From: Ectothiorhodospiraceae bacterium
GTDB taxonomy: Bacteria; Pseudomonadota; Gammaproteobacteria; Nitrococcales; Halorhodospiraceae
Assembly (NCBI GenBank): GCA_003552625.1
Contig: PUNM01000095.1
Location: 1-64,000, forward strand
Reading direction: 5' to 3'
DNA length: 64,000 nt
Shown: one piece after another, positions 2,351 through 39,715 of the stretch
Layout: every line of letters begins with the position of its first letter
Numbering within the stretch: position 1 is the first letter of the stretch
Notes under the pieces: generated by a model
Told to the model about the DNA's origin: nothing
The model's input: the letters and a program-made list of their open reading frames with translations, nothing else
Database searches by the model: none
Position numbers and translations under genes: made by a program

Positions 2351-2443
2351 GGAACTCTCCCTCGTTGGCTTCCGATCAGCGGATGACCGGCGATATTACA
2401 AGGCGGCCCGGCCCCTTCGCCAGGTTGCCGCACGCTAACCCCT

Positions 2444-2457
2444 CGCCGGATCCGGCG
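2444..2457. repeat. Perfect 14-base palindrome between DUF1499 gene and glcB
   Basis: The sequence cgccggatccggcg is fully self-complementary and begins one base beyond the DUF1499 stop codon. It could be a weak terminator stem without a loop, a protein site, or chance in GC-rich DNA. It has no T run. Confidence 0.3.
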
Positions 2458-2458
2458 C

Positions 2459-3205
2459 TTACTCGTTCAGGACCGCCTCCAGCTCGGCGAAAAAGGCTTC
2501 TATACGCCGCGCGTTCGCCCCCAGATCGTGCTGCCCGACCCGCGAAGCCGAGCGCACGTCCACGCGCCGCTCGCCGGGACCCTCGTCGCGGATCCGGACC
2601 GCCACGTCATCCACGAAGGCGAACCAGTCGCTGCGGGCAGCGGCTTCGAGCCCGCCTTGCTCGTCCGTGCGCGCGACCGTCCAACCCTGGGACCACGCCA
2701 CCTGCTGAGCGGCAGCGAGCAGGTCGGCGACGTTGTGCGAATAATAGCGCGCTTCGATCTCCGGATAGGCCTGCCGCTGCTTTTCCGCAACCTTCTCGCC
2801 CGGATGCTCCAGCGGGTTATCGCCGCGGGCACGGGCCGCGGCCAGAGCGTCGAAGGCAGGCGGATTGTCCAGGTCGGTGCTGACATCATGGATAGCCGGG
2901 AGCGTGAACGCGGCGTAGAAGTGGGGTGCGGTCACGGTGACCACGGCGCCGCCGAGAAGGAGAGCCAGAAGTGCGCGACCCCGCCCCCGCTTGCCGTGGA
3001 GGCCCAGGGTGGCCAGGAACCCCGGGACCGCAAGCAGCAGCGCCACGCCTGCAGCCGCTGCCCCGCTGACGACCATGACCATCGCCGGCTCCAGCTCGAT
3101 CCAGCGTACGCGGTAGAGCGGCCCGGCAACGGCGGCGCAGGCGGCCCCGAGGGCCGCAGCCAGCGCTGCCGTCGTGGCCAGCCGGGAGACCGGCGCTTGG
3201 AACAT
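2459..3205 (-). CDS. DUF1499 family membrane protein
   Basis: The protein has 248 residues. Three hydrophobic segments (about 8-30, 41-68 and 77-97) are followed by a soluble DUF1499 domain starting at IHDVSTDLDNPPAF (about 105) and running to the end. The function of DUF1499 proteins is unknown; many are membrane anchored and face the periplasm. The ATG at 3205 is preceded by GGAGGG, but both lie inside a perfect 14-bp inverted repeat (see 3203-3237), so translation may be controlled by RNA structure. Upstream on the same strand, 94 bp away, is the small MgtE_N-like gene. A 14-base palindrome (2444-2457) lies directly behind the stop. Confidence 0.88.
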   Translation of the reverse strand: MFQAPVSRLATTAALAAALGAACAAVAGPLYRVRWIELEPAMVMVVSGAAAAGVALLLAVPGFLATLGLHGKRGRGRALLALLLGGAVVTVTAPHFYAAFTLPAIHDVSTDLDNPPAFDALAAARARGDNPLEHPGEKVAEKQRQAYPEIEARYYSHNVADLLAAAQQVAWSQGWTVARTDEQGGLEAAARSDWFAFVDDVAVRIRDEGPGERRVDVRSASRVGQHDLGANARRIEAFFAELEAVLNE

Positions 3206-3237
3206 AATCCCTCCAGCCTTTGCCTGGAGGGATTATG
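3203..3237 (-). promoter_or_regulatory. Perfect 14-bp hairpin burying the Shine-Dalgarno and start codon of the DUF1499 gene
   Basis: Bases 3203-3216 (cataatccctccag) and 3224-3237 (ctggagggattatg) are exact inverted repeats around a 7-base loop. In the minus-strand mRNA the 3' arm contains the GGAGGG ribosome site and ends with the ATG, so both would be base paired. This is the layout of a translational switch such as an RNA thermometer, a riboswitch output stem or an autoregulatory site. No T run follows, which argues against a terminator. The geometry is directly visible; the regulatory role is inferred. Confidence 0.6.
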
Positions 3238-3299
3238 CGGGTGACGCCCTGCAGGTCCAAGCCTGGCCGTGGCACCAGGCGTTGGAGGAACGGCTACAC

Positions 3300-3674
3300 T
3301 TACTGCAAACGCCCGGAAAGGACCGTCTCAACACGGCTGCGCTTGAGCGGGCGCAGGTTGCGGACAATATCGTCCCGGCACTCGGGATCCATGTGGCCGA
3401 GGACACGGGCGAGGGTATTGAACGGCAAACGATTAGCCAGGCGGCAAGCGCGGCCGCGGTTCATGTGCTCGAGCACGCTGGCCTGACCCTCCGGGCGCAT
3501 CTCGAGGAATGCGGCGAGGCGTTCGCCATCGGGCATCGCCTCAAGCGCAGCGGGGCGGTCCGTCGGATCCATCCGCAGGATGCGCCGTGCAGCGGCTGCG
3601 GGCAGGCGGTCTGCGAACTCGGCACGCGTGGTGGTGGCCACGCCGACGTCTTGACGCTCGGTGGTGATGGTCAT
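3300..3674 (-). CDS. Small stand-alone MgtE_N-like helical-repeat protein
   Basis: A 124-residue soluble protein. Residues 24-117 show repeated short helices with the pattern of the MgtE intracellular N domain superhelix (for example AAARRILRMDPTDRPAALEAM and later LARVLGHMDPECRDDIVRNL). No membrane segments or CBS domains follow, so it is not a transporter. In MgtE the equivalent domain senses Mg2+; whether this one does is unknown. The ATG at 3674 is chosen over an upstream ATG at 3848 because it has an excellent GGAGG site and the domain starts after it. That site lies in a perfect hairpin, and a promoter at 3857-3885 would give a leader of about 175 nt. The next gene downstream is DUF1499. 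Confidence 0.65.
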   Translation of the reverse strand: MTITTERQDVGVATTTRAEFADRLPAAAARRILRMDPTDRPAALEAMPDGERLAAFLEMRPEGQASVLEHMNRGRACRLANRLPFNTLARVLGHMDPECRDDIVRNLRPLKRSRVETVLSGRLQ

Positions 3675-3723
3675 CTCTGCCTCCTTTTGATCGGGTGCCC
3701 GTCCCAGGGCACCGGAGGCAGAG
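3675..3723 (-). promoter_or_regulatory. Composite hairpin sequestering the ribosome site of the MgtE_N-like gene
   Basis: In the minus-strand RNA the 10 bases at 3723-3714 (ctctgcctcc) are the exact complement of 3684-3675 (ggaggcagag), which ends directly before the ATG. Between them a second 7-bp stem (3713-3707 with 3700-3694) closes a 6-base loop, leaving a 9-base bulge cgatcaaaa on the 3' side. The whole Shine-Dalgarno is therefore paired. This looks like the output stem of a translational riboswitch or a thermosensor. I saw no match to a riboswitch class I know. Confidence 0.6.
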
Positions 3724-3739
3724 GAGCCACGAGACTCCG

Positions 3740-3823
3740 TCAGGCTTCGCCGGAAACCCAGGGGCGGGCGTTGGTTCGCGGTACAGCGTCGCTGTTTGAC
3801 GTACTGCAATAACCGTCCGGCAT
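3740..3823 (-). CDS. Possible 27-residue leader peptide (upstream ORF)
   Basis: ATG at 3823 with a GAGG eight bases upstream opens a 27-codon frame (MPDGYCSTSNSDAVPRT, then NARPWVSGEA) ending at TGA 3740-3742, inside the leader of the MgtE_N-like gene. There is no run of one amino acid as in classical amino-acid attenuators. It may be chance; comparing related leaders would decide. Confidence 0.22.
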   Translation of the reverse strand: MPDGYCSTSNSDAVPRTNARPWVSGEA

Positions 3824-3856
3824 GACGGCAACCTCGTGTGGCTGACACGCAGCGTT

Positions 3857-3885
3857 AATCTATGTGGGGGTGCGCATCCTGTCAA
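3857..3885 (-). promoter_or_regulatory. Sigma-70-type promoter for the MgtE_N-like gene
   Basis: Reading the minus strand, TTGACA (3885-3880) is followed after exactly 17 bases by TAGATT (3862-3857). The -35 box is a full consensus match. The predicted start point is near 3850, about 175 bases upstream of the ATG. It is back to back with the rpmE2 promoter. Confidence 0.65.
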
Positions 3886-3908
3886 GGCGTGGAGGGGCCT
3901 CGCGTACC

Positions 3909-3937
3909 TTGACCCCCCTGGGCGCGGTGGATACTAT
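3909..3937 (+). promoter_or_regulatory. Sigma-70-type promoter for rpmE2-gltA
   Basis: TTGACC at 3909-3914 and TACTAT at 3932-3937 are separated by 17 bases. The start point would be near 3944, giving a leader of about 44 bases before the rpmE2 ATG at 3988, which has a GAGGGAG ribosome site. Confidence 0.65.
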
Positions 3938-3987
3938 CCGCGCTCAAATACTCGTCTTACGCGCGACGATAAGTCGCAGAGGGAGCT

Positions 3988-4251
3988 ATGAAGAAAGAGA
4001 TTCACCCCGAGTATCGTGAGGTCGTCTTCCAGGACATCTCGACGGATTTCTCCTTCCTGACCCGCTCGACGGTGCAGACCGACGAGACCATTACCTGGGA
4101 AGACGGCAAGGAGTACCCTCTGGTTAAGGTCGAGGTCTCCAGCCGGAGCCACCCCTTCTTCACCGGTAAGCAACGCGTCGTGCACTCTGGTGGCCAGGTC
4201 GATCGCTTCCGCAAGCGTTTCGGCATGACCCGCGGTTCCTCGGCCAACTGA
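3988..4251 (+). CDS. rpmE2: 50S ribosomal protein L31 type B (zinc-independent)
   Basis: The 87-residue protein opens [18 protein letters not shown] and contains [12 protein letters not shown] and VDRFRKRFG, all typical of L31 type B. It lacks the CxxC zinc-binding cysteines of the standard L31, and is longer (type A is about 70). In many bacteria such C-minus paralogues replace the zinc form when zinc is scarce. The only L31 in the window is this one; whether a type A copy exists elsewhere cannot be seen. It is followed after 48 bp by gltA on the same strand, with a 10-bp hairpin overlapping its stop codon. No Zur box was identified by eye. Confidence 0.95.
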
Positions 4252-4274
4252 TCCCCGACGCCCCGTCGGGGATC
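4250..4274 (+). terminator. 10-bp hairpin across the rpmE2 stop codon
   Basis: gatccccgac (4250-4259) and gtcggggatc (4265-4274) are perfect inverted repeats around the loop gcccc. The stem includes the last two bases of the TGA stop. There is no T run, so it may be a partial terminator, an mRNA 3'-end stabiliser or a processing site that sets the ratio of rpmE2 to gltA message. Confidence 0.45.
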
Positions 4275-4299
4275 CCCACGGCAGTAGCGGAGGGGCGTC

Positions 4300-5598
4300 A
4301 TGACCTCGAGAACCGTCACCGTAACCGACAACACCACTGGCAAGAGCGTCGAGATGCCCGTCCGCGAAGGGACGCACGGCCCGCCGGTTGTCGATATCCA
4401 CAACCTTTACAAGGAATTCGGCTACTTCACTTACGATGCGGGATTTACCGCCACGGCAAGCTGCCAGAGCGATATCACCTTCATCGACGGCGATCAGGGC
4501 ATCCTCCTCTACCGTGGCTACCCGATCGAGGAACTCGCGGCCAACAGCAATTTCCTCGAGGTCTCCTACCTCCTGCTCCACGGTGAGCTGCCCACGCGGG
4601 ACGAGCTTGACGTCTTCAACCGGGCGGTCACCGAACATGCGATGATCAATGAGTCGTTGAAAGACTTCTTCGACGGCTTCCATTACAACGCCCACCCGAT
4701 GGCCATGCTCACCGGCGTGGTGGCCTCGCTCTCGGCCTTTTACCACGACGCAATCAACATCGGTGATCCGCGGAACCGCATGCTCACCTGCCACCGGGTG
4801 CTGGCAAAGATGCCGACCATCGCAGCGGCGGCCTACAAGCACATGGCCGGCGAACCCTTTGTCTATCCGCTCAACCGGCTCTACTACACCGAGAACCTGC
4901 TCAACATGCTGTTCTCCCGGCCGACCGAGCCGTACGAGATCAATCCGATTCATGCCCGCGCGCTCGATCAGCTGTTGATCCTGCACGCGGATCACGAGCA
5001 GAACGCGTCCACCTCCACGGTCCGCCTGGCCAGCTCCACCGGTACCAACCCGTTCGCCTCCATCGCCTGCGGCTGCGCCGCCCTGTGGGGCCCGGCCCAT
5101 GGTGGCGCCAACGAGGCGGTGCTGAACATGCTCCACCAGATCGGCGACATCAGCCAGGTGCCCAAGTACTTGGAGAAGGCCAAGGACAAAGACGACCCGT
5201 TCCGCCTGATGGGCTTCGGGCACCGGGTGTACAAGAACTTCGACCCGCGGGCGCGGATCATCCGCAAGACGTGTCATGAGGTCCTCAACGACCTGGGCAT
5301 CGAGAACGACCCGCAGCTGGAACTGGCCATGGAACTCGAGGAGCGGGCGCTGCAGGACGACTACTTCGTCGAGCGCAAGCTCTACCCGAACGTGGACTTT
5401 TACTCGGGCATCATCTACCGGGCCCTGGGGATCCCGACCGACTTCTTCACCGTGATGTTCGCGCTCGGCCGGACGCCGGGCTGGCTGGCCCAGTGGAACG
5501 AGATGGTCTCCGATCCCGAGCAGCGGATCGGCCGCCCTCGCCAGCTCTACACGGGCGCACCGACGCGCGAGTACGTCCCCATCGACCAGCGCGGCTGA
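4300..5598 (+). CDS. gltA: Citrate synthase
   Basis: It condenses oxaloacetate with acetyl-CoA, the first step of the TCA cycle and glyoxylate bypass. The 432-residue length fits the type II hexameric enzyme of Gram-negative bacteria (E. coli 427). Catalytic blocks are clear: [16 protein letters not shown] around residue 228, [11 protein letters not shown], and the signature [14 protein letters not shown] around 307. The ATG at 4300 has a GGAGGGG site. It may be read from the rpmE2 promoter, or from one too weak to see in the 48-bp gap. A strong bidirectional hairpin follows. Confidence 0.98.
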
Positions 5599-31838: not shown

Positions 31839-32105
31839 GGTTTGTTCCCCCGTTTTCGGCAGTTGAGAGCCGTTGGTAATCCGTGACGGCTGGGCATGAG
31901 CCGCCGTTCCTACACTCGACCGTGCGGCCCCGGCAATTGATCCGCGGGCGCGGCCGAACGGGCAGATGCTAGCGAATCGGCCCCGGGGTGTGAAGCCGCG
32001 TTGCACTGCGGCAGACATGTGCTCCCGGCGAACACCACTTGTCAAGAGGCGTGCCAACCGGCTATAAGAGGTGCAGCCCGAGCCTTGACGAAATGGGGGT
32101 GGGCC
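31839..32105. other. Divergent intergenic region between pntAa and the HNH endonuclease gene
   Basis: The 267 bases carry the HNH promoter (32039-32068) and presumably the pnt promoter. On the minus strand TTGCCG and TAGGAA with 18 bases between (about 31940-31911) is a weak candidate. No small gene or RNA could be recognised. Confidence 0.4.
32039..32068 (+). promoter_or_regulatory. Sigma-70-type promoter for the HNH endonuclease gene
   Basis: TTGTCA (32039-32044) and TATAAG (32063-32068) are separated by 18 bases. The transcript would begin near 32075, about 30 bases before the GTG start. Confidence 0.5.
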
Positions 32106-32690
32106 GTGTTCGAGCATCGGATCCTGCGTACCGATGTCTCCGGGATGCCGCTTGAGTGGGTCGGTTTCGAGGAGGCGGTACGCTACTACTACCTGGGCCA
32201 GGTCGCCTACGCGTGCGGCAGCACGCTCTACCGGGTGCGGGGCGGTTTCAACTCAGCCACGGGGCGAAGGTCGTACATCGACCTCAACTCGATTATCGCC
32301 ACCGAAGGCTCCCGCCAGGCATCGATGAAAGGACGAGCGGGCTATACACCGCCCCTCAACAACCCCACCCTCTTCCGCCGCGACGCTCACCTTTGCCTCT
32401 ACTGCGGGAAACGCCTCCGCACCTCCGAGCTCTCCCGTGACCACGTCACGCCGGTCAGCCGCGGCGGCGCGGACATCTGGAACAACGTCGTCACGGCCTG
32501 CAAGCGGTGCAACAACCACAAAGGGGATCGTACGCCGGAGCATGCCGGCATGGAGCTGCTCGCGGTGCCCTTCACCCCCACCCACGCGGAATACGTCTAC
32601 CTGCAGGGCCGACGCATCCTCGCGGACCAGATGGAGTTCCTCAAACAGCACTTCCCGCGCCGCAGCCCGTTGCGGGTCCGGCACCCCTGA
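32106..32690 (+). CDS. HNH endonuclease
   Basis: The protein has 194 residues. The HNH core lies at about 94-140: CLYCGKRLRTSELSRDHVTP, then SRGGADIWNNVVTACKRCNNHKGDRTP, with two CxxC zinc pairs, the HV histidine and the central Asn. The N-terminal ILRTDVSGMPLEWVGFEEAV is shared with a widespread chromosomal group of HNH proteins. The GTG at 32106 is chosen because it is behind a G-rich site and a good promoter. It is not beside a methylase or phage gene, so a house-keeping or genome-maintenance role is more likely than restriction. Confidence 0.87.
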   Translation: MFEHRILRTDVSGMPLEWVGFEEAVRYYYLGQVAYACGSTLYRVRGGFNSATGRRSYIDLNSIIATEGSRQASMKGRAGYTPPLNNPTLFRRDAHLCLYCGKRLRTSELSRDHVTPVSRGGADIWNNVVTACKRCNNHKGDRTPEHAGMELLAVPFTPTHAEYVYLQGRRILADQMEFLKQHFPRRSPLRVRHP

Positions 32691-32714: not shown

Positions 32715-35159
32715 TCACTCCCGCTGTTCGCGAAGCCGACGCAACTCCTCGAACAAGATGTAATCCTGGAGCTGCTGGGCGGAGTGCACCGCGCCGAGGC
32801 GGCTTCCCTCGTCCTCGACCAAGGGCCCCCGGGGGTGACCGTCGCCTGCAGAGCGCTGCAGCCACTGCCAGGTCAACGGCCCCGGATAGATCAACGTCAC
32901 TTCGGTCCACGCCGCTTCCGCCTCGTCCAGGTCACCGTCGGTGTAGCGGGCGGTCAGGTCGGCATCCCCCGCGGCTTGGCCGCCGTCCGGATCCTCCAGC
33001 CCCAGGGTCAGCGGCAACGACACACGATGCCAGCGGCTACCGACGCCCTCGTGGACTGAGAAGGCGACGTCGTATGTGCGGCCGGGGCGCAGGTCGTGGC
33101 TTTCACGACTGTCCGGGGCCTCGAGGCTGCGGGTCAGGCGGATCCGCCAGGCGCCGTCGCTATAGCCCCCGGTAGAGCGAATCGCGCTCCGGTTTCCCTC
33201 CGGTTCGCGCAGCAGGCGCTGTGGCAGGGCATCGCCACTCTCCCAGTCGTGCTCGGGATCAAAAGGTTTGGCAGCAGCCTCGGTGAGGTAGTAGGGGTCG
33301 TCTTGCCCGTAATCCCCGCGCTCCAGCCCATCCAGGCTCAAGGCGCGAAAACCGGCCGCATCCGGATCGTACATATAAGCCGGTTGCTCGGCCTCTTCAT
33401 CCCAGTTCAGCGTGTCTGTCCCGCGGCCGGAAGCCGGGTGCCGCGCCTCCAGGATCGAGCCGCTGTCGGCGTGCCCCACCGGGTGGGACCGGTGCGCGCG
33501 CCACTCCCAGAGATCCAGAAAATCCCCGGCGTCGCGCAGGGCCTCCAGTTCATCGCGAGCGCGAACGTCGTCCCAAGCCGCGTTTTGCGTATCGCGACGG
33601 CTCTGCGGAAGGTACGGGTCCACATCCTCGCGGCCGAGACGTTCACCAAGGTGTGGATGGCTGACCACCTCCTCCGGGTCGGCAGCCGAAGGGAACCCAC
33701 GCACCCCCTCGTGCGCGATGAGAAAGCCGCCGTACTCCCTCAGCCCCAGTTCATTGGCGTCGATGAGCATGGCGATGCGATCCTCATAAAGTCCACGCGG
33801 GTCCGGCGGCGGACCGCCGGACCCGTAAAGTTCCCAGCGACCCTCCTGATGGCGCCGCCGCTCATCGTAGACCCAGTACTGGTGGTACCAGGACGGCTCG
33901 TCGGTCTTGAGTACATAACGAATCTGGATGGCGTCGTCGTTGTAAACGGCTCCGACCTGGAGTGTGCGCTGAAGCTCATCGCGCGGGGGGATATAGACCT
34001 GGCGGTCGCGATCCACCGCCAGCGGTTCGCCAGGCACTAACCGCCGATCCAGCAGATCCGAAGCGGCGCGCCAGATTCGATAGGTATCGAGCAGACCGGC
34101 ATCGAGCTCCACATGGGCAAGCCCTGAGCTCTCCCGCACTCTCGCGTCGGGAAGCGCAGATTCCAGGGCTCGGCTGTGACTGGCAGGGACGACCGGGTCG
34201 TTGCTGCCGTGGACCAGGAGCACCTGCGGCGGGAAGTTCCGCCAGCGCTGACTGGAGGGGTCGAGGCGATCCAACTTGTCGCGCATCGACTCCGGGAGCG
34301 CTCCGTAGCGCTCTTCAAAGGCCTCCGGTTCCTCGTTCTCCAGCAGCGCGACCACGCTCTGGCCAGCCTCGCTGAGCGACGCCCGTTCGGCGCTGATATC
34401 GGCCTCCGGGTCCTGGATGCGGCGGTCGGCAAGGCGCCGCAGCCAACGCCGATCCTCCTGCGCCTCCATGTGCTCGGCCAGCGTCCGCAGCAGTACCCAT
34501 CGCCCCTGCGCCAGCGGCGCCGGCTGATCCTGGGTTTCGGCCAGTGGATCGTAGCCAGTGGTCAGATACTGGAGCCATGCCTGCAGGTCGTAGTAGCCGC
34601 CGATCAGGGCCACACTATCGACCCGACGCTGCAGCTCCTCATCCCGCACGGCCAGTAGCACTGGACCGCTCATCAGGCTGAACGTCGCGACCTTCAGGGG
34701 CTTGCCGCGGCTCTCGGGCCGCTCCGCCATATGGCGCAGGGCGTCGGCAACGTCCTCACCGGCATCCGGATCCCAGCGGCTCTCCCGCAGCGACTCCACA
34801 TCCGGCACCAGAACCCGATAGCCGGTCCGGCTCAGGCTCTCGGCGAACGCCACCAGCCGCTCATCGTCCTTGCCGTCTTCGGTCAGGCCGTGGACGAGCA
34901 CGAGATTGCCGAGCGCCTCCCCTTCCGGCCGATAGAGATCCGCACGCCGCTCACCAGCGCCGAGATCGTAACGAACCGTCTCCGATTCCGGATCACCGCC
35001 CCGGCGTTGCAGGCGAGTTTCCGCATCGGGCTCGGCCTCCAGATCGCTGAGCAGGAGTGCGGCCTCGTACTCACGCTCGACGCTGGCACAGCCGGTCAAG
35101 CCAGCAGCCCCAAGCAGCAAGGCTCCAGCAATGGCAGGAAAGGGCTTAAGACGCATCAT
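32715..35159 (-). CDS. Lipoprotein fusing an alpha/beta hydrolase to an ethylbenzene-dehydrogenase-type haem-binding domain
   Basis: The protein has 814 residues. The lipobox LTGC places Cys24 as the lipidation site. Residues 60-375 look like an alpha/beta hydrolase: LVLVHGLTEDG (oxyanion loop), VATFSLMSG at the nucleophile position (Ser161, but a degenerate GxSxG), HGSNDPVVP (Asp322) and GLAHVEL (His349). Residues 400-725 match the EB_dh haem-binding domain: LYEDRIAMLIDA, WEWRAHRSHPVGHADSG, GNRSAIRSTGGYSDGAWRI, LTRSLEAPD and YDVAFSVHEG, ending in WHRVSLPLTLGL. No CxxCH is present, so any haem would be non-covalent. Start is one of two adjacent ATGs. A fusion of these parts is new to me. Confidence 0.75.
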   Translation of the reverse strand: MMRLKPFPAIAGALLLGAAGLTGCASVEREYEAALLLSDLEAEPDAETRLQRRGGDPESETVRYDLGAGERRADLYRPEGEALGNLVLVHGLTEDGKDDERLVAFAESLSRTGYRVLVPDVESLRESRWDPDAGEDVADALRHMAERPESRGKPLKVATFSLMSGPVLLAVRDEELQRRVDSVALIGGYYDLQAWLQYLTTGYDPLAETQDQPAPLAQGRWVLLRTLAEHMEAQEDRRWLRRLADRRIQDPEADISAERASLSEAGQSVVALLENEEPEAFEERYGALPESMRDKLDRLDPSSQRWRNFPPQVLLVHGSNDPVVPASHSRALESALPDARVRESSGLAHVELDAGLLDTYRIWRAASDLLDRRLVPGEPLAVDRDRQVYIPPRDELQRTLQVGAVYNDDAIQIRYVLKTDEPSWYHQYWVYDERRRHQEGRWELYGSGGPPPDPRGLYEDRIAMLIDANELGLREYGGFLIAHEGVRGFPSAADPEEVVSHPHLGERLGREDVDPYLPQSRRDTQNAAWDDVRARDELEALRDAGDFLDLWEWRAHRSHPVGHADSGSILEARHPASGRGTDTLNWDEEAEQPAYMYDPDAAGFRALSLDGLERGDYGQDDPYYLTEAAAKPFDPEHDWESGDALPQRLLREPEGNRSAIRSTGGYSDGAWRIRLTRSLEAPDSRESHDLRPGRTYDVAFSVHEGVGSRWHRVSLPLTLGLEDPDGGQAAGDADLTARYTDGDLDEAEAAWTEVTLIYPGPLTWQWLQRSAGDGHPRGPLVEDEGSRLGAVHSAQQLQDYILFEELRRLREQRE

Positions 35160-35269: not shown

Positions 35270-36157
35270 ATGAAGCTACAGGAGCGTATCGAGGCAGCCA
35301 TCCAGGCCGCCACCGGCGAGGCCTTCGGGCCTGGCGAACGCCGGGGCGCTGGCGGTGGCTGCATCCACGACGCCTTTCTCCTCGGCGACGGCCGACGCCG
35401 TTATTTCGTAAAGATCAACGACGCTACGGCCGCCGCCATGTTCGAGACCGAAGCCGATGCGCTTACAGAACTGGCGCGGTGCGGGGCCCTGCGCGTGCCG
35501 CGTCCGATCACGCACGGCGAGCACCAGGGCCAGGCCTTTCTCGTCCTGGAGTACGTGGACCTCTCGGGCCGGGGTGACCGGAGCAGCTACCGCCGTCTGG
35601 GCGAGGGCCTGGCCCACCTGCACCAGGCGACGGCCAGCCAGCACGGCTGGCACCGCGACAATTTCATTGGCTCGACGCTGCAGCCCAACGGGTGGTGGTC
35701 GGACTGGGTCGATTTCTTTCGCGAGCAACGCCTGCGCCACCAGCTTCGCCTGGCCGTGGACAGCGGCGCCGGCTCCCGGCTAAGAGACCGGGGCGAGCGC
35801 CTTGCGGAACGGCTGGGCGGGCTCTTCGCCGGCTACACGCCGCTGCCGTCGCTGCTCCACGGCGATCTGTGGGGCGGCAATGCCGGTTTTTCTGCCGACG
35901 GCACGCCGGTGATCTACGACCCGGCGACCTACTATGGGGACCGGGAGACCGATCTCGCCATGAGCGAACTCTTCGGCGGCTTCCCGGAACCCTTCCACAC
36001 AGGCTACGACGAGGTCTGGCCCCGGGATTCCGGGTACCCGGTCCGCCGGGACCTCTACCAGCTCTACCACGTCCTCAACCACTTCAACCTGTTCGGGGGA
36101 ATGTACCGGAGCCAGGCTCAGCGACTGATCGACCGCCTGCTCGCCGAACTCAACTGA
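35270..36157 (+). CDS. Fructosamine-3-kinase family protein
   Basis: The family phosphorylates ketoamines formed by glycation so that they break down, repairing proteins or free amino acids. The protein has 295 residues. Kinase-like motifs are RRYFVKINDA (about 44), LVLEYVDL (about 93), the catalytic LLHGDLWGGNAGF (about 198) and the metal-binding IYDPATYYGDRETDLAM (about 216). The ATG at 35270 follows GAGGTGCCCC. It ends with an 8-bp convergent overlap with the squalene-synthase gene. Confidence 0.92.
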   Translation: MKLQERIEAAIQAATGEAFGPGERRGAGGGCIHDAFLLGDGRRRYFVKINDATAAAMFETEADALTELARCGALRVPRPITHGEHQGQAFLVLEYVDLSGRGDRSSYRRLGEGLAHLHQATASQHGWHRDNFIGSTLQPNGWWSDWVDFFREQRLRHQLRLAVDSGAGSRLRDRGERLAERLGGLFAGYTPLPSLLHGDLWGGNAGFSADGTPVIYDPATYYGDRETDLAMSELFGGFPEPFHTGYDEVWPRDSGYPVRRDLYQLYHVLNHFNLFGGMYRSQAQRLIDRLLAELN

Positions 36158-37223
36158 TCCCCTGGGAGCGCCCTGAGCGCACCAGCGGCCGCGGCAGACC
36201 GCGGCCACTCCAGGCCAATGCCACGCGCATCGCCCAGTCCCGCTCTGCACCATAGGCCGACAGGCCGGCAAGACGGCGCACCTGCCGACGGCTGATCTTG
36301 ACCTCGTCGCCGGAACAAAAGCCGGGTCTCCTGTGGATCTCGCGCAGGGTGGCGAGGGACATGGTCGCCGCCCAGGCGCAGAAGCGACGGATCCCCGGCT
36401 CGGTGGTCGGTATGCGCAGGATGTAGGAGCGCGCCGCCTCCATGTGCTCCACGCCGATGGTCACCATCTCGGCGATACCCCGGGCGAAGGCCGGATCACC
36501 GGCCCACTCCGCATCGGGATCGAGGGGGCAGCCGGCCTCGGTAAAGACATCCCGGGGCAACCAGCAGACCCCCCGCTGGCGATCCGCCCAGACATCCTTG
36601 ATCACGTTCGTCGCCTGCAGCCCCAGCCCGAAACGGCGTCCGAGATCCATCATCTCCGGATCGCCGGCCGACGGGAAGCCCTCCACCTCGAGCCCGAACA
36701 GGTCGGTAAGCATCTCGCCGACGACGCCAGCCACGTAGTAGCAGTAGGCCTCGAACTGCTCCCGGTCCCGCAACCCGGCCGGCGAGCGGCGGCGCTGGAA
36801 ATCCGCCATCCCTTCGCCCATCACCGAAACACAGCGGATCACCGGCTCACGGTGAGCCTCCGGCAGGCCGCCGGTGACATCGACCAGCCGCGGCAGCCCG
36901 ACAACCAGATCGCGTTCCGCGGGCGGGGTATCCCAGTCGAGAACCTTCTGAATCGCACTGGAGAGCTCCGACGGGTCCCGCCTGCCCTGCAAGGCCTCCT
37001 TGAGCCCGATCATCAGGTCGTGTTTGGCGTCCGGCTCGGCCCGGGAGTGATCCTCCACCGTATCGGCCACCCGGCAGAGGAGATAGGCGTTGGTCACCGT
37101 ATCCCGCAGCGCCACCGGAAGCTCGGGGATGGTCAACGCGAACGTGCGGGAGACCCCCGGCAGAGCGGCCTCCTGATAGGCCCGGTTCACCGCCCAGCGG
37201 TAGGCCCGGTGCCGCTCACTCAT
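36150..37223 (-). CDS. Squalene/phytoene synthase family protein, squalene-synthase type
   Basis: The family joins two C15 or C20 isoprenyl diphosphates head to head. The protein has 357 residues. The first Asp-rich motif is in LLCRVADTVEDH (about 53-64) and the second in NVIKDVWADRQRGVCWLP (about 207-224), with SRTFALTIPELP near the start. The wording resembles the longer eukaryote-type squalene synthases more than CrtB or HpnC/HpnD, so squalene is the likelier product. The ATG at 37223 overlaps the stop of the flavin reductase by 8 bp. The reductase could supply electrons for the NADPH-dependent second half-reaction, but that is speculative. Confidence 0.8.
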   Translation of the reverse strand: MSERHRAYRWAVNRAYQEAALPGVSRTFALTIPELPVALRDTVTNAYLLCRVADTVEDHSRAEPDAKHDLMIGLKEALQGRRDPSELSSAIQKVLDWDTPPAERDLVVGLPRLVDVTGGLPEAHREPVIRCVSVMGEGMADFQRRRSPAGLRDREQFEAYCYYVAGVVGEMLTDLFGLEVEGFPSAGDPEMMDLGRRFGLGLQATNVIKDVWADRQRGVCWLPRDVFTEAGCPLDPDAEWAGDPAFARGIAEMVTIGVEHMEAARSYILRIPTTEPGIRRFCAWAATMSLATLREIHRRPGFCSGDEVKISRRQVRRLAGLSAYGAERDWAMRVALAWSGRGLPRPLVRSGRSQGIS

Positions 37224-38217
37224 GGCTGAAGTGGAACGCATCGAAGAACAGCTCCTCCGCGTCCAGGCCGTGCTCCGTGAACGCGGCTGCCGCCGCGTCG
37301 GTCATCGGCGGCGGGCCACTCATGTAGACCTGATAGCCAGCGAGATCGGGATAGTCGGCGAGCACCGCCTCGTGGACCCAACCGGTCCGCCCGGCCCAGG
37401 CATCATCAGGCTGCGGTTCCGAGAGCACCGGCGTGTAGATGAGGTTAGCGTGCGCCTGCGCCAGGGCCTCCACGTGCTCGTGCATGTAGAGCCCGGCCCG
37501 GTCCCGGGCACCCCAGAAGAGATGGAGCGGCCGCTCGACGCCTTGGTGAAAGGCGTGATCGAGGATGGCCTTTAATGGCCCGAAGCCCGTTCCGCCCCCG
37601 ACCAGGATGGCCGGCCGCTCGCTACTGCGCAGGTAGAACTGGCCCAGCGGCCCCTCGATGCGCAGCGGAGTGCCCGGTTTCAGGCTGCTGAAGACATACT
37701 CGGTAAAGCGCCCGCCCGGGACATGGCGGATATGCAGCTCCAGGTAGTGATCATCTTCTGGCGCATTCGCGAGCGAGAACGAGCGCCGCCCACCATCACT
37801 GAGCAGAACATCGATATATTGCCCGGCACGGAAGGGAAGACGCTGCCCCTCCGGCAGGCTCAGGAAGACCTGGTAGACGTCTGGGGCCAGCTGCTCCATA
37901 TGCGCCACCCGTGCCGCCAGGGTCCGCGGCTGCGCTGTCGCCTCCGTCGGCGTGACATCGATGACCAGGTCGCTGAGCGGACGGGCCTGGCAGAGCAGGG
38001 TATAGCCCGCGGCCTGCTCCTCATCGCTGAGCCCTTTCGGCTGGCCCTCGGGGTAGCGCACGCTGCCACGCGTCACCGGCGCCATGCAGCTGCGGCAGAC
38101 ACCGTTGCGACACCCGTAGGCCAGCCCAATTCCTTCCCGCAAAGCGGCATCCAGGATCGACTCCCCCTCGGCGACGGATAGCTCGGTCTCATCGCGAAAG
38201 CGTACGCGGTGCGTCAT
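37216..38217 (-). CDS. 2Fe-2S ferredoxin/FAD/NAD(P)H oxidoreductase (CDP-6-deoxy-delta-3,4-glucoseen reductase-like)
   Basis: The protein has 333 residues. The N-terminal plant-type ferredoxin domain (1-92) has CRNGVCRSCMAPVTRG and a later LLCQA, giving the four cluster cysteines. It is followed by a ferredoxin-reductase FAD domain (about 100-195, RRSFSLANAPEDD) and an NAD(P) domain with AILVGGGTGFGPLKAIL and the C-terminal YMSGPPPM. In many gammaproteobacteria such a gene follows ubiD. The ATG at 38217 is chosen; the longer frame to 38448 is a read into ubiD. It is coupled to both neighbours: 22 bp after ubiD and overlapping the squalene-synthase-type gene. Confidence 0.9.
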   Translation of the reverse strand: MTHRVRFRDETELSVAEGESILDAALREGIGLAYGCRNGVCRSCMAPVTRGSVRYPEGQPKGLSDEEQAAGYTLLCQARPLSDLVIDVTPTEATAQPRTLAARVAHMEQLAPDVYQVFLSLPEGQRLPFRAGQYIDVLLSDGGRRSFSLANAPEDDHYLELHIRHVPGGRFTEYVFSSLKPGTPLRIEGPLGQFYLRSSERPAILVGGGTGFGPLKAILDHAFHQGVERPLHLFWGARDRAGLYMHEHVEALAQAHANLIYTPVLSEPQPDDAWAGRTGWVHEAVLADYPDLAGYQVYMSGPPPMTDAAAAAFTEHGLDAEELFFDAFHFSHE

Positions 38218-38239
38218 CGTTTCCCCTGTTGTTGGCGGC

Positions 38240-39715
38240 TCACTCGGGATCGTCCAGGCCCAGTTCAGCCCAGTAGGCATCGACCCGGGCACGGGTCTCT
38301 GCGTCCATCGTCGCCGGCCGACCCCACTCCCGGTCTGTTTCCCCGCGCCACTTATTGGTGGCATCCACGCCCATTTTCGAGCCGAGACCGGAGACCGGTG
38401 AAGCGAAATCGAGGTAGTCGATCGGGCTGTGATCGACAAAGGTGGCATCCCGGCGCGGGTCCGAGCGCGTGGTCAACGCCCAGATCACCGACTTCCAGTC
38501 CCGCGCATCCACGTCGTCATCGGTAACAATGATGAACTTCGTGTACATGAACTGACGAAGGAACGACCAGACGCCAAGCATGACGCGTTTGGCATGCCCG
38601 GCGTACTGCTTGCGGATGGTCACCACCGCCAGGCGGTAGGAACACCCCTCCGGCGGCAGGTAGAAGTCGACGATCTCCGGGAACTGCTTGCGCAGGATGG
38701 GCACAAAGACTTCATTGAGCGCTTCGCCCAGCACCGCGGGCTCATCCGGCGGGCGCCCCGTGTAAGTGGAGTGGTAGATCGGATCGCGGCGATGGGTAAT
38801 TCGCTCTACGGTGAGCACCGGGAACGTCTCCACTTCGTTGTAGTAGCCGGTATGGTCGGCGAAGGGGCCCTCTTCAGCTTGGTCGTCGGGGTGGATGTGT
38901 CCTTCCAGGACGATTTCCGCCGAAGCCGGCACTTGCAGATCCGAGCCGCGGCACGGGACCAGCTCCGTCCTGGAGCCCCGCAGCAACCCGGCGAAGGCGT
39001 ACTCGCTGACGTTATCCGGCACCGGGGTGACCGCGCCGAGGATGGTCGCCGGGTCCGCACCCAGCGCCACAGCGACCGGGAACGGCTCCCCCGGGTAAAG
39101 GCGCTGATGGTCAGCGAAGTCGAGTGCACCGCCGCGGTGGGCGAGCCAGCGCATGATCACGCGGTTGGAGCCGATCACCTGCTGTCGGTAGATCCCCAGG
39201 TTCTGGCGCTCCTTCTCCGGCCCGCGGGTGATCACCAGTGCCCAGGTAATCAGCGGTCCGGCATCGCCAGGCCAGCAGGTCTGGATGGGCCACTGGCGCA
39301 GGTCCACCTGGTCCCCCTCCAGCACCACCTCCTGGCAGGGCGCGCGGCGCACGGTCTTCGGCGCCATGTCCAGAACACGCCGGAAGATGGGCAGCTGGCT
39401 CCAGGCATCGCGCATGCCGCGCGGCGGCTCAGGCTGCCGGAGGAAGGCGAGCAGCTCACCGATCTCGCGCAATGCAGAGACGTTCTCCGCCCCCATGCCC
39501 AGGGCCACGCGGCGTGGCGTACCGAAGAGGTTGCCGAGCACCGGGGTGCGGTAGCCGCGCGGATTCTCGAAGAGCAGAGCCGGCCCGCCGGCGCGCAGGG
39601 TACGATCACAGACCTCGGTCATCTCCAGATGGGGATCCACCGGGTGCGTGATCCGTTTGAGTTCACCCTGCCCCTCCAGATGATGGATGAACTCGCGCAG
39701 GTCACGGTACTTCAT
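38240..39715 (-). CDS. ubiD: 4-hydroxy-3-polyprenylbenzoate decarboxylase
   Basis: It uses prenylated FMN, made by UbiX, for the decarboxylation in ubiquinone synthesis. The protein has 491 residues, the usual length. Recognisable blocks are [22 protein letters not shown] at the start (split here at residue 20), [16 protein letters not shown] around 214, [13 protein letters not shown] around 283 (the conserved Glu of the active site), and the C-terminal [18 protein letters not shown]. The ATG at 39715 is natural. It heads the operon with the Fe-S flavin reductase and the squalene-synthase-type gene. UbiX is not in the window. Confidence 0.97.

Follow-up and report, generated by a model that had tools for sequence, protein, structure and literature searches.

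Two sets of described proteins lie closest to the fusion analysed here. Acylaminoacyl peptidases, monoglyceride lipases and feruloyl esterases are alpha/beta hydrolases whose nucleophile elbow carries the canonical GxSxG motif. EbdC, the gamma subunit of ethylbenzene dehydrogenase, and NxrC, subunit C of nitrite oxidoreductase, belong to the type II DMSO-reductase family (PF09459/TIGR03477) and hold haem b through a methionine and a lysine (PMC8840923, PMC8387239), which in NxrC are Met155 and Lys305 (PMC8387239). In the open-access literature, we found ethylbenzene dehydrogenase, alpha/beta hydrolase and lipoprotein nowhere treated together, and ethylbenzene dehydrogenase nowhere in connection with H. 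halophila. Here, we describe a lipoprotein that joins an alpha/beta hydrolase to an ethylbenzene dehydrogenase-type (EB_dh) domain, encoded in a 64,000-nucleotide stretch of DNA from an Ectothiorhodospiraceae bacterium (contig PUNM01000095.1; the window). The protein shares with EbdC and NxrC the fold, the EB_dh profile, an AVW/AVH-like strand motif and a W-x-W motif. In contrast to them, it has no molybdenum or Fe–S partner genes in the inspected neighbourhood, is fused to a hydrolase and carries a predicted lipid anchor, and the Met and Lys ligands are replaced in its family by invariant His426, Met596 and His711. The hydrolase plus EB_dh architecture is established, and the protein is a new domain combination built from known parts.

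A fusion gene at a conserved locus

The gene is a minus-strand open reading frame (35159..32715) that begins with ATG and translates to 814 residues, in agreement with the coordinates originally predicted, and the motifs quoted in that prediction are present in the protein (Table 1). By inspection, its signal peptide ends in the lipobox LTGC (residues 21–24), which marks the protein as a bacterial lipoprotein, as had been proposed. Among the hydrolase relatives, the lipobox Cys column holds Cys in 24 of 34 and a gap in eight.

Table 1. Features of the fusion gene and its two neighbours, in window coordinates.
Feature	Coordinates	Strand	Basis
Whole gene: lipoprotein, alpha/beta hydrolase + EB_dh fusion	32715..35159	-	814 aa, Pfam, related genomes
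Signal peptide, residues 1–23, ending in the lipobox (LTG, then C)	35091..35159	-	Sequence inspection
Cys24, predicted lipid anchor	35088..35090	-	Sole Cys of the protein
Alpha/beta hydrolase domain, residues 25–372	34044..35087	-	Pfam, predicted model, PDB fold match
Ser161, predicted nucleophile	34677..34679	-	Invariant in 34/34; elbow of strand 155–160 and helix 161–170 (model)
Asp321, predicted catalytic acid	34197..34199	-	Invariant in 34/34; after strand 312–318 (model)
His349, predicted catalytic base	34113..34115	-	Invariant in 34/34; after strand 339–344 (model)
Inter-domain junction, ~10 residues (373–382)	34014..34043	-	End of stand-alone hydrolases, start of mature EB_dh proteins
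EB_dh domain, residues 383–723	32991..34013	-	PF09459, predicted model, fold matches
His426, candidate haem ligand	33882..33884	-	Invariant in 81/81
Met596, candidate haem ligand	33372..33374	-	Invariant in 81/81
His711, strongest candidate haem ligand	33027..33029	-	Invariant in 81/81; common to many distant EB_dh classes
HNH endonuclease gene, convergent neighbour, one locus edge	32001..32690	+	PF14279, E 9.2e-19; syntenic
Fructosamine kinase (FN3K) gene, divergent neighbour, other locus edge	35270..36157	+	PF03881, E 1.1e-105; syntenic

We searched 59 related genomes for the full-length protein. The fusion is a single unbroken frame in four genomes of the Halorhodospira group, purple bacteria of salt lakes (the window genome G000, G004, G006 and G007), and the copies in the related genomes are 61–62% identical to the window copy. 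In the order's other families, the two halves are separate genes, far apart within the same genome. Most EB_dh relatives are stand-alone exported proteins without an attached enzyme, and only one of the 80 named loci with such a relative is fused, on a 10,780-bp contig matching that of G004, which bears out the claim of a rare architecture. The phylogenetic spread that the original prediction had proposed to examine is thus four genomes with the fusion, with the halves separate and unlinked in other relatives. The same prediction had allowed for two genes joined by a frameshift. The existence of the halves as separate genes in most relatives would suit a frameshift, a chimeric contig or a mis-called joint reading frame; against these stands an in-frame fusion common to four independent genomes at the same locus. 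One of these genomes (G006) is complete, and its fusion lies on a single contig of 2,678,452 bp, which excludes an assembly error. We therefore reject an artefact as having almost no chance of being correct, and treat the hydrolase–EB_dh fusion as genuine.

HNH and FN3K genes flank the fusion in all four genomes, and across relatives the slot between them holds the fusion, holds the hydrolase alone or is empty. In G009, of the sister genus, it contains only the hydrolase (HNH 1742–2341, hydrolase 2359–3459, kinase 3570–4448). G008 has a stand-alone hydrolase separated from HNH by one extra gene, presumably lpxD from our reading of its translation. Three same-genus genomes (G001, G003 and G005) have an empty slot, with 108, 41 and 97 bp, respectively, between the two neighbour matches. 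In a phylogenetic tree, the EB_dh domains of the fusions group as a single clade (support 100/99), nested among stand-alone proteins that come mostly from organisms of soda and salt lakes; outside the fusion, this clade has no close sister. Because the slot holds the fusion, the hydrolase or nothing, the EB_dh sequence was probably added to the 3′ end of a resident hydrolase lipoprotein gene; later loss of the whole gene in some lineages is the simplest reading of the empty slots. Purifying selection acts on each of the two halves, with dN/dS at 0.08–0.12 in both among three close fusion species, and 0.26–0.36 against the window copy, at which distance synonymous change is near saturation. The low ratios in both halves indicate that both are maintained. 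Downstream of the kinase, all fusion genomes also share a conserved block (36150–39715 in the window) with a squalene/phytoene synthase gene, a ferredoxin-type flavin reductase gene and a UbiD-like gene.

The hydrolase half

The predicted hydrolase domain is borne out by a Pfam match above the cut-off (Abhydrolase_1 at residues 86–346; 30.3 bits versus 25.8, E 4.4e-7) and by a serine-hydrolase fold. Its model has a mean pLDDT of 89.2, and the best PDB match is the acylaminoacyl peptidase 3o4j_A (Z 22.0, rmsd 3.0, 261 residues aligned), with monoglyceride lipases and feruloyl esterases the next folds after the acylaminoacyl peptidases. All three groups share the alpha/beta hydrolase fold at Z ~20–22 but differ from the window hydrolase in sequence, at 10–20% identity. 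Many alpha/beta hydrolases fall within about 2 Z units of the best match, so the fold match names no substrate.

The triad of Ser161, Asp321 and His349 occupies canonical places after the expected strands of the model and is invariant in all 34 relatives, in keeping with the Asp and His considered plausible at the outset. The elbow lacks the canonical GxSxG, reading TxSxM in the window protein, and the original prediction had noted this stretch (TFSLMSG) as an altered nucleophile elbow. An impairment is not supported: across the 34 relatives, the elbow is [A/G/T]xSx[A/G/M/S] with an invariant Ser, and in the model it is a regular strand–Ser161–helix turn. The TFSLM elbow is a family variant, not a loss or decay. 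With the triad invariant, we rejected a degenerate hydrolase; sequence conservation and the model together indicate an enzyme that is likely to be catalytically competent. Stand-alone lipoprotein alpha/beta hydrolases of Gammaproteobacteria (Abhydrolase_1/Hydrolase_4) have the same lipobox and triad and an AxSxx elbow, and those of G008 and G009 occupy the fusion's genomic slot; they differ in stopping at residue ~372, without EB_dh. A search of plasmid records returned only weak hydrolase matches.

The EB_dh half and its candidate haem ligands

The profile search and structure prediction suggested with the original prediction both support its EB_dh domain. PF09459 matches residues 383–714 with 151.9 bits (cut-off 33.3; E 3.9e-44), and this part of the model, with pLDDT mostly above 90, adopts an EbdC-like fold. 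The best match is the ethylbenzene dehydrogenase gamma subunit (2ivf_C; Z 12.2, rmsd 2.9, 165 residues aligned), followed by subunit C of nitrite oxidoreductase (7b04_C; Z 11.7).

Conservation was read from two alignments, one for each half, because a joint alignment of all relatives placed hydrolases onto EB_dh. When the sequences are aligned by the W-x-W and GxR motifs, the places of Met155 and Lys305 of NxrC are taken by Leu541 and Trp710/His711. Met occurs at position 541 in 23 of the 81 relatives and Lys at 710 or 711 in none, and Met/Lys ligation of the EbdC/NxrC type is thus not conserved among them. His426, Met596 and His711 are invariant in all 81. Further afield, His711 is common to distant EB_dh classes, Met596 is replaced by Val, Leu or Ile in the paralogues L184–L186, and His426 by Asn in the more distant L204 and L205, so either of these two may be the second ligand. 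This invariant set, in a family without Met/Lys, makes haem binding by the C-terminal half plausible, with ligands other than those of EbdC and NxrC. Stand-alone exported EB_dh proteins of Thioalkalivibrio, Ectothiorhodospira, Wenzhouxiangella, Aliidiomarina and Opitutales are ~45–57% identical and have the same invariant residues; in contrast to the window protein, they are unfused, with their own signal peptide and no conserved neighbour.

Other EB_dh genes appear in different settings. A distant subgroup (L098–L120, including L100:2314-4388 and L111:5908-7898; also L028:9670-11576) has terminal membrane segments and is followed by a gene for a DUF2231 membrane protein. This pairing spans Alpha-, Beta- and Gammaproteobacteria, possibly reaching further, and is probably a two-gene redox cassette. 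The window genome encodes a second EB_dh protein (L186:1366-3306; G000:C15), a predicted lipoprotein of 646 residues that contains one CxxCH motif and another resembling CxxxCH. The membrane-anchored, DUF2231-linked subgroup and this CxxCH-bearing protein point to redox functions of EB_dh domains in general rather than to a particular role of the fusion. As read from their sequences, loci of some Ectothiorhodospiraceae (L023, L025 and L026) have a stand-alone EB_dh gene directly after or near TRAP-type transporter genes, and in Alkalilimnicola (L027:7654-10938) one adjoins genes resembling arsR, an arsC-type phosphatase gene and an ACR3 arsenic efflux gene.

Possible roles of the joined domains

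The computations show an EbdC-like fold, intact domains, a conserved triad, one reading frame, synteny and purifying selection. We consider the chance somewhat better than even that this genuine, selected fusion tethers two envelope activities to one lipid anchor, which is the simplest model. A lipoprotein hydrolase already resident in the periplasm of the Halorhodospira family would have been extended at its C terminus by the mature portion of an exported EB_dh protein. The N-terminal half would be an active serine enzyme of the esterase or peptidase type, kept in the envelope by the lipid on Cys24, with sorting to the outer membrane likely because no Asp follows this residue. The C-terminal half would bind one b-type haem, through His711 and either His426 or Met596, and its periplasmic role may be the exchange of electrons or small ligands. 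A haem domain that also controlled hydrolysis would be a further step beyond such tethering. Counting against this reading are the Met/Lys pair of EbdC and NxrC, which is not conserved, the CBM9 modules that match the fold at lower Z, the co-occurrence of the two halves in only 10 of 50 genomes and the absence of the gene from the empty locus of three same-genus genomes.

With EbdC and NxrC as its nearest solved folds, the EB_dh half could instead be the gamma subunit of a type II molybdenum enzyme, from which it would receive electrons. This role we rejected as very improbable: the Met/Lys ligands are absent, TIGR03477 scores 21.1 bits, below its cut-off of 169.85, and no gene for a molybdenum alpha or Fe–S beta subunit was found among the inspected genes beside the window gene (the nearest identified being HNH, FN3K, squalene/phytoene synthase and a flavin/Fe–S reductase) or in the inspected neighbourhoods of relatives. 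A C-terminal domain without haem would act as a CBM9-like ligand- or glycan-binding module, targeting an esterase to a polymer on the cell surface or in the environment. Such a protein would follow the usual esterase-plus-binding-module design, CBM9-type chains match the same domain (4jpq_A, Z 7.8; 1i82_A, Z 6.9), the EbdC haem ligands are missing, and the protein, with its one Cys, has no c-type haem motif. However, the matches to EbdC and NxrC are clearly stronger (Z 12.2 and 11.7), the EB_dh profile matches at E 3.9e-44, the His/Met set is invariant, and most relatives are exported on their own, not joined to any enzyme; we regard a binding module as unlikely, although still deserving of weight.

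The domains might also be coupled, with the redox state of the haem or a ligand such as O2, NO or sulfide opening and closing the hydrolase. The junction of only ~10 residues and the retention of the fusion across 38% protein divergence, with the halves equally constrained, would fit such coupling, but elsewhere the halves are separate genes without conserved linkage or strong co-occurrence, and the full-length model (pTM 0.63) has low confidence in its N-half. A hydrolase relative is present in 10 of 50 genomes that have an EB_dh relative, mostly of one genus, with five of the better matches from Thioalkalivibrio. Functional dependence of the halves is therefore not general, and we rejected this weak co-occurrence as a sign of coupling. 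We likewise rejected a functional link drawn from the neighbours of the separate genes, since the inspected loci of the close group show no neighbour conserved beside the stand-alone EB_dh genes and the stand-alone hydrolase of Ectothiorhodospiraceae sits among housekeeping genes. Coupling of the domains thus seems distinctly unlikely, and a lipid-anchored hydrolase that a His-ligated EB_dh haem domain switches through its redox state or gas ligand slightly less likely again; haem- or redox-gated hydrolysis is a speculation, one possibility among several. If true, the gated fusion would represent a new type of periplasmic sensor-enzyme made in one piece.

The locus provides an example of gene fusion in place, in which one chromosomal slot carries the hydrolase alone, the fusion or nothing in close relatives. 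It also draws attention to exported EB_dh proteins as a widespread family that has gone unstudied, with many members from organisms of salt and soda lakes. The family lacks the classic Met/Lys haem ligands, which makes its haem chemistry directly testable with one small protein.
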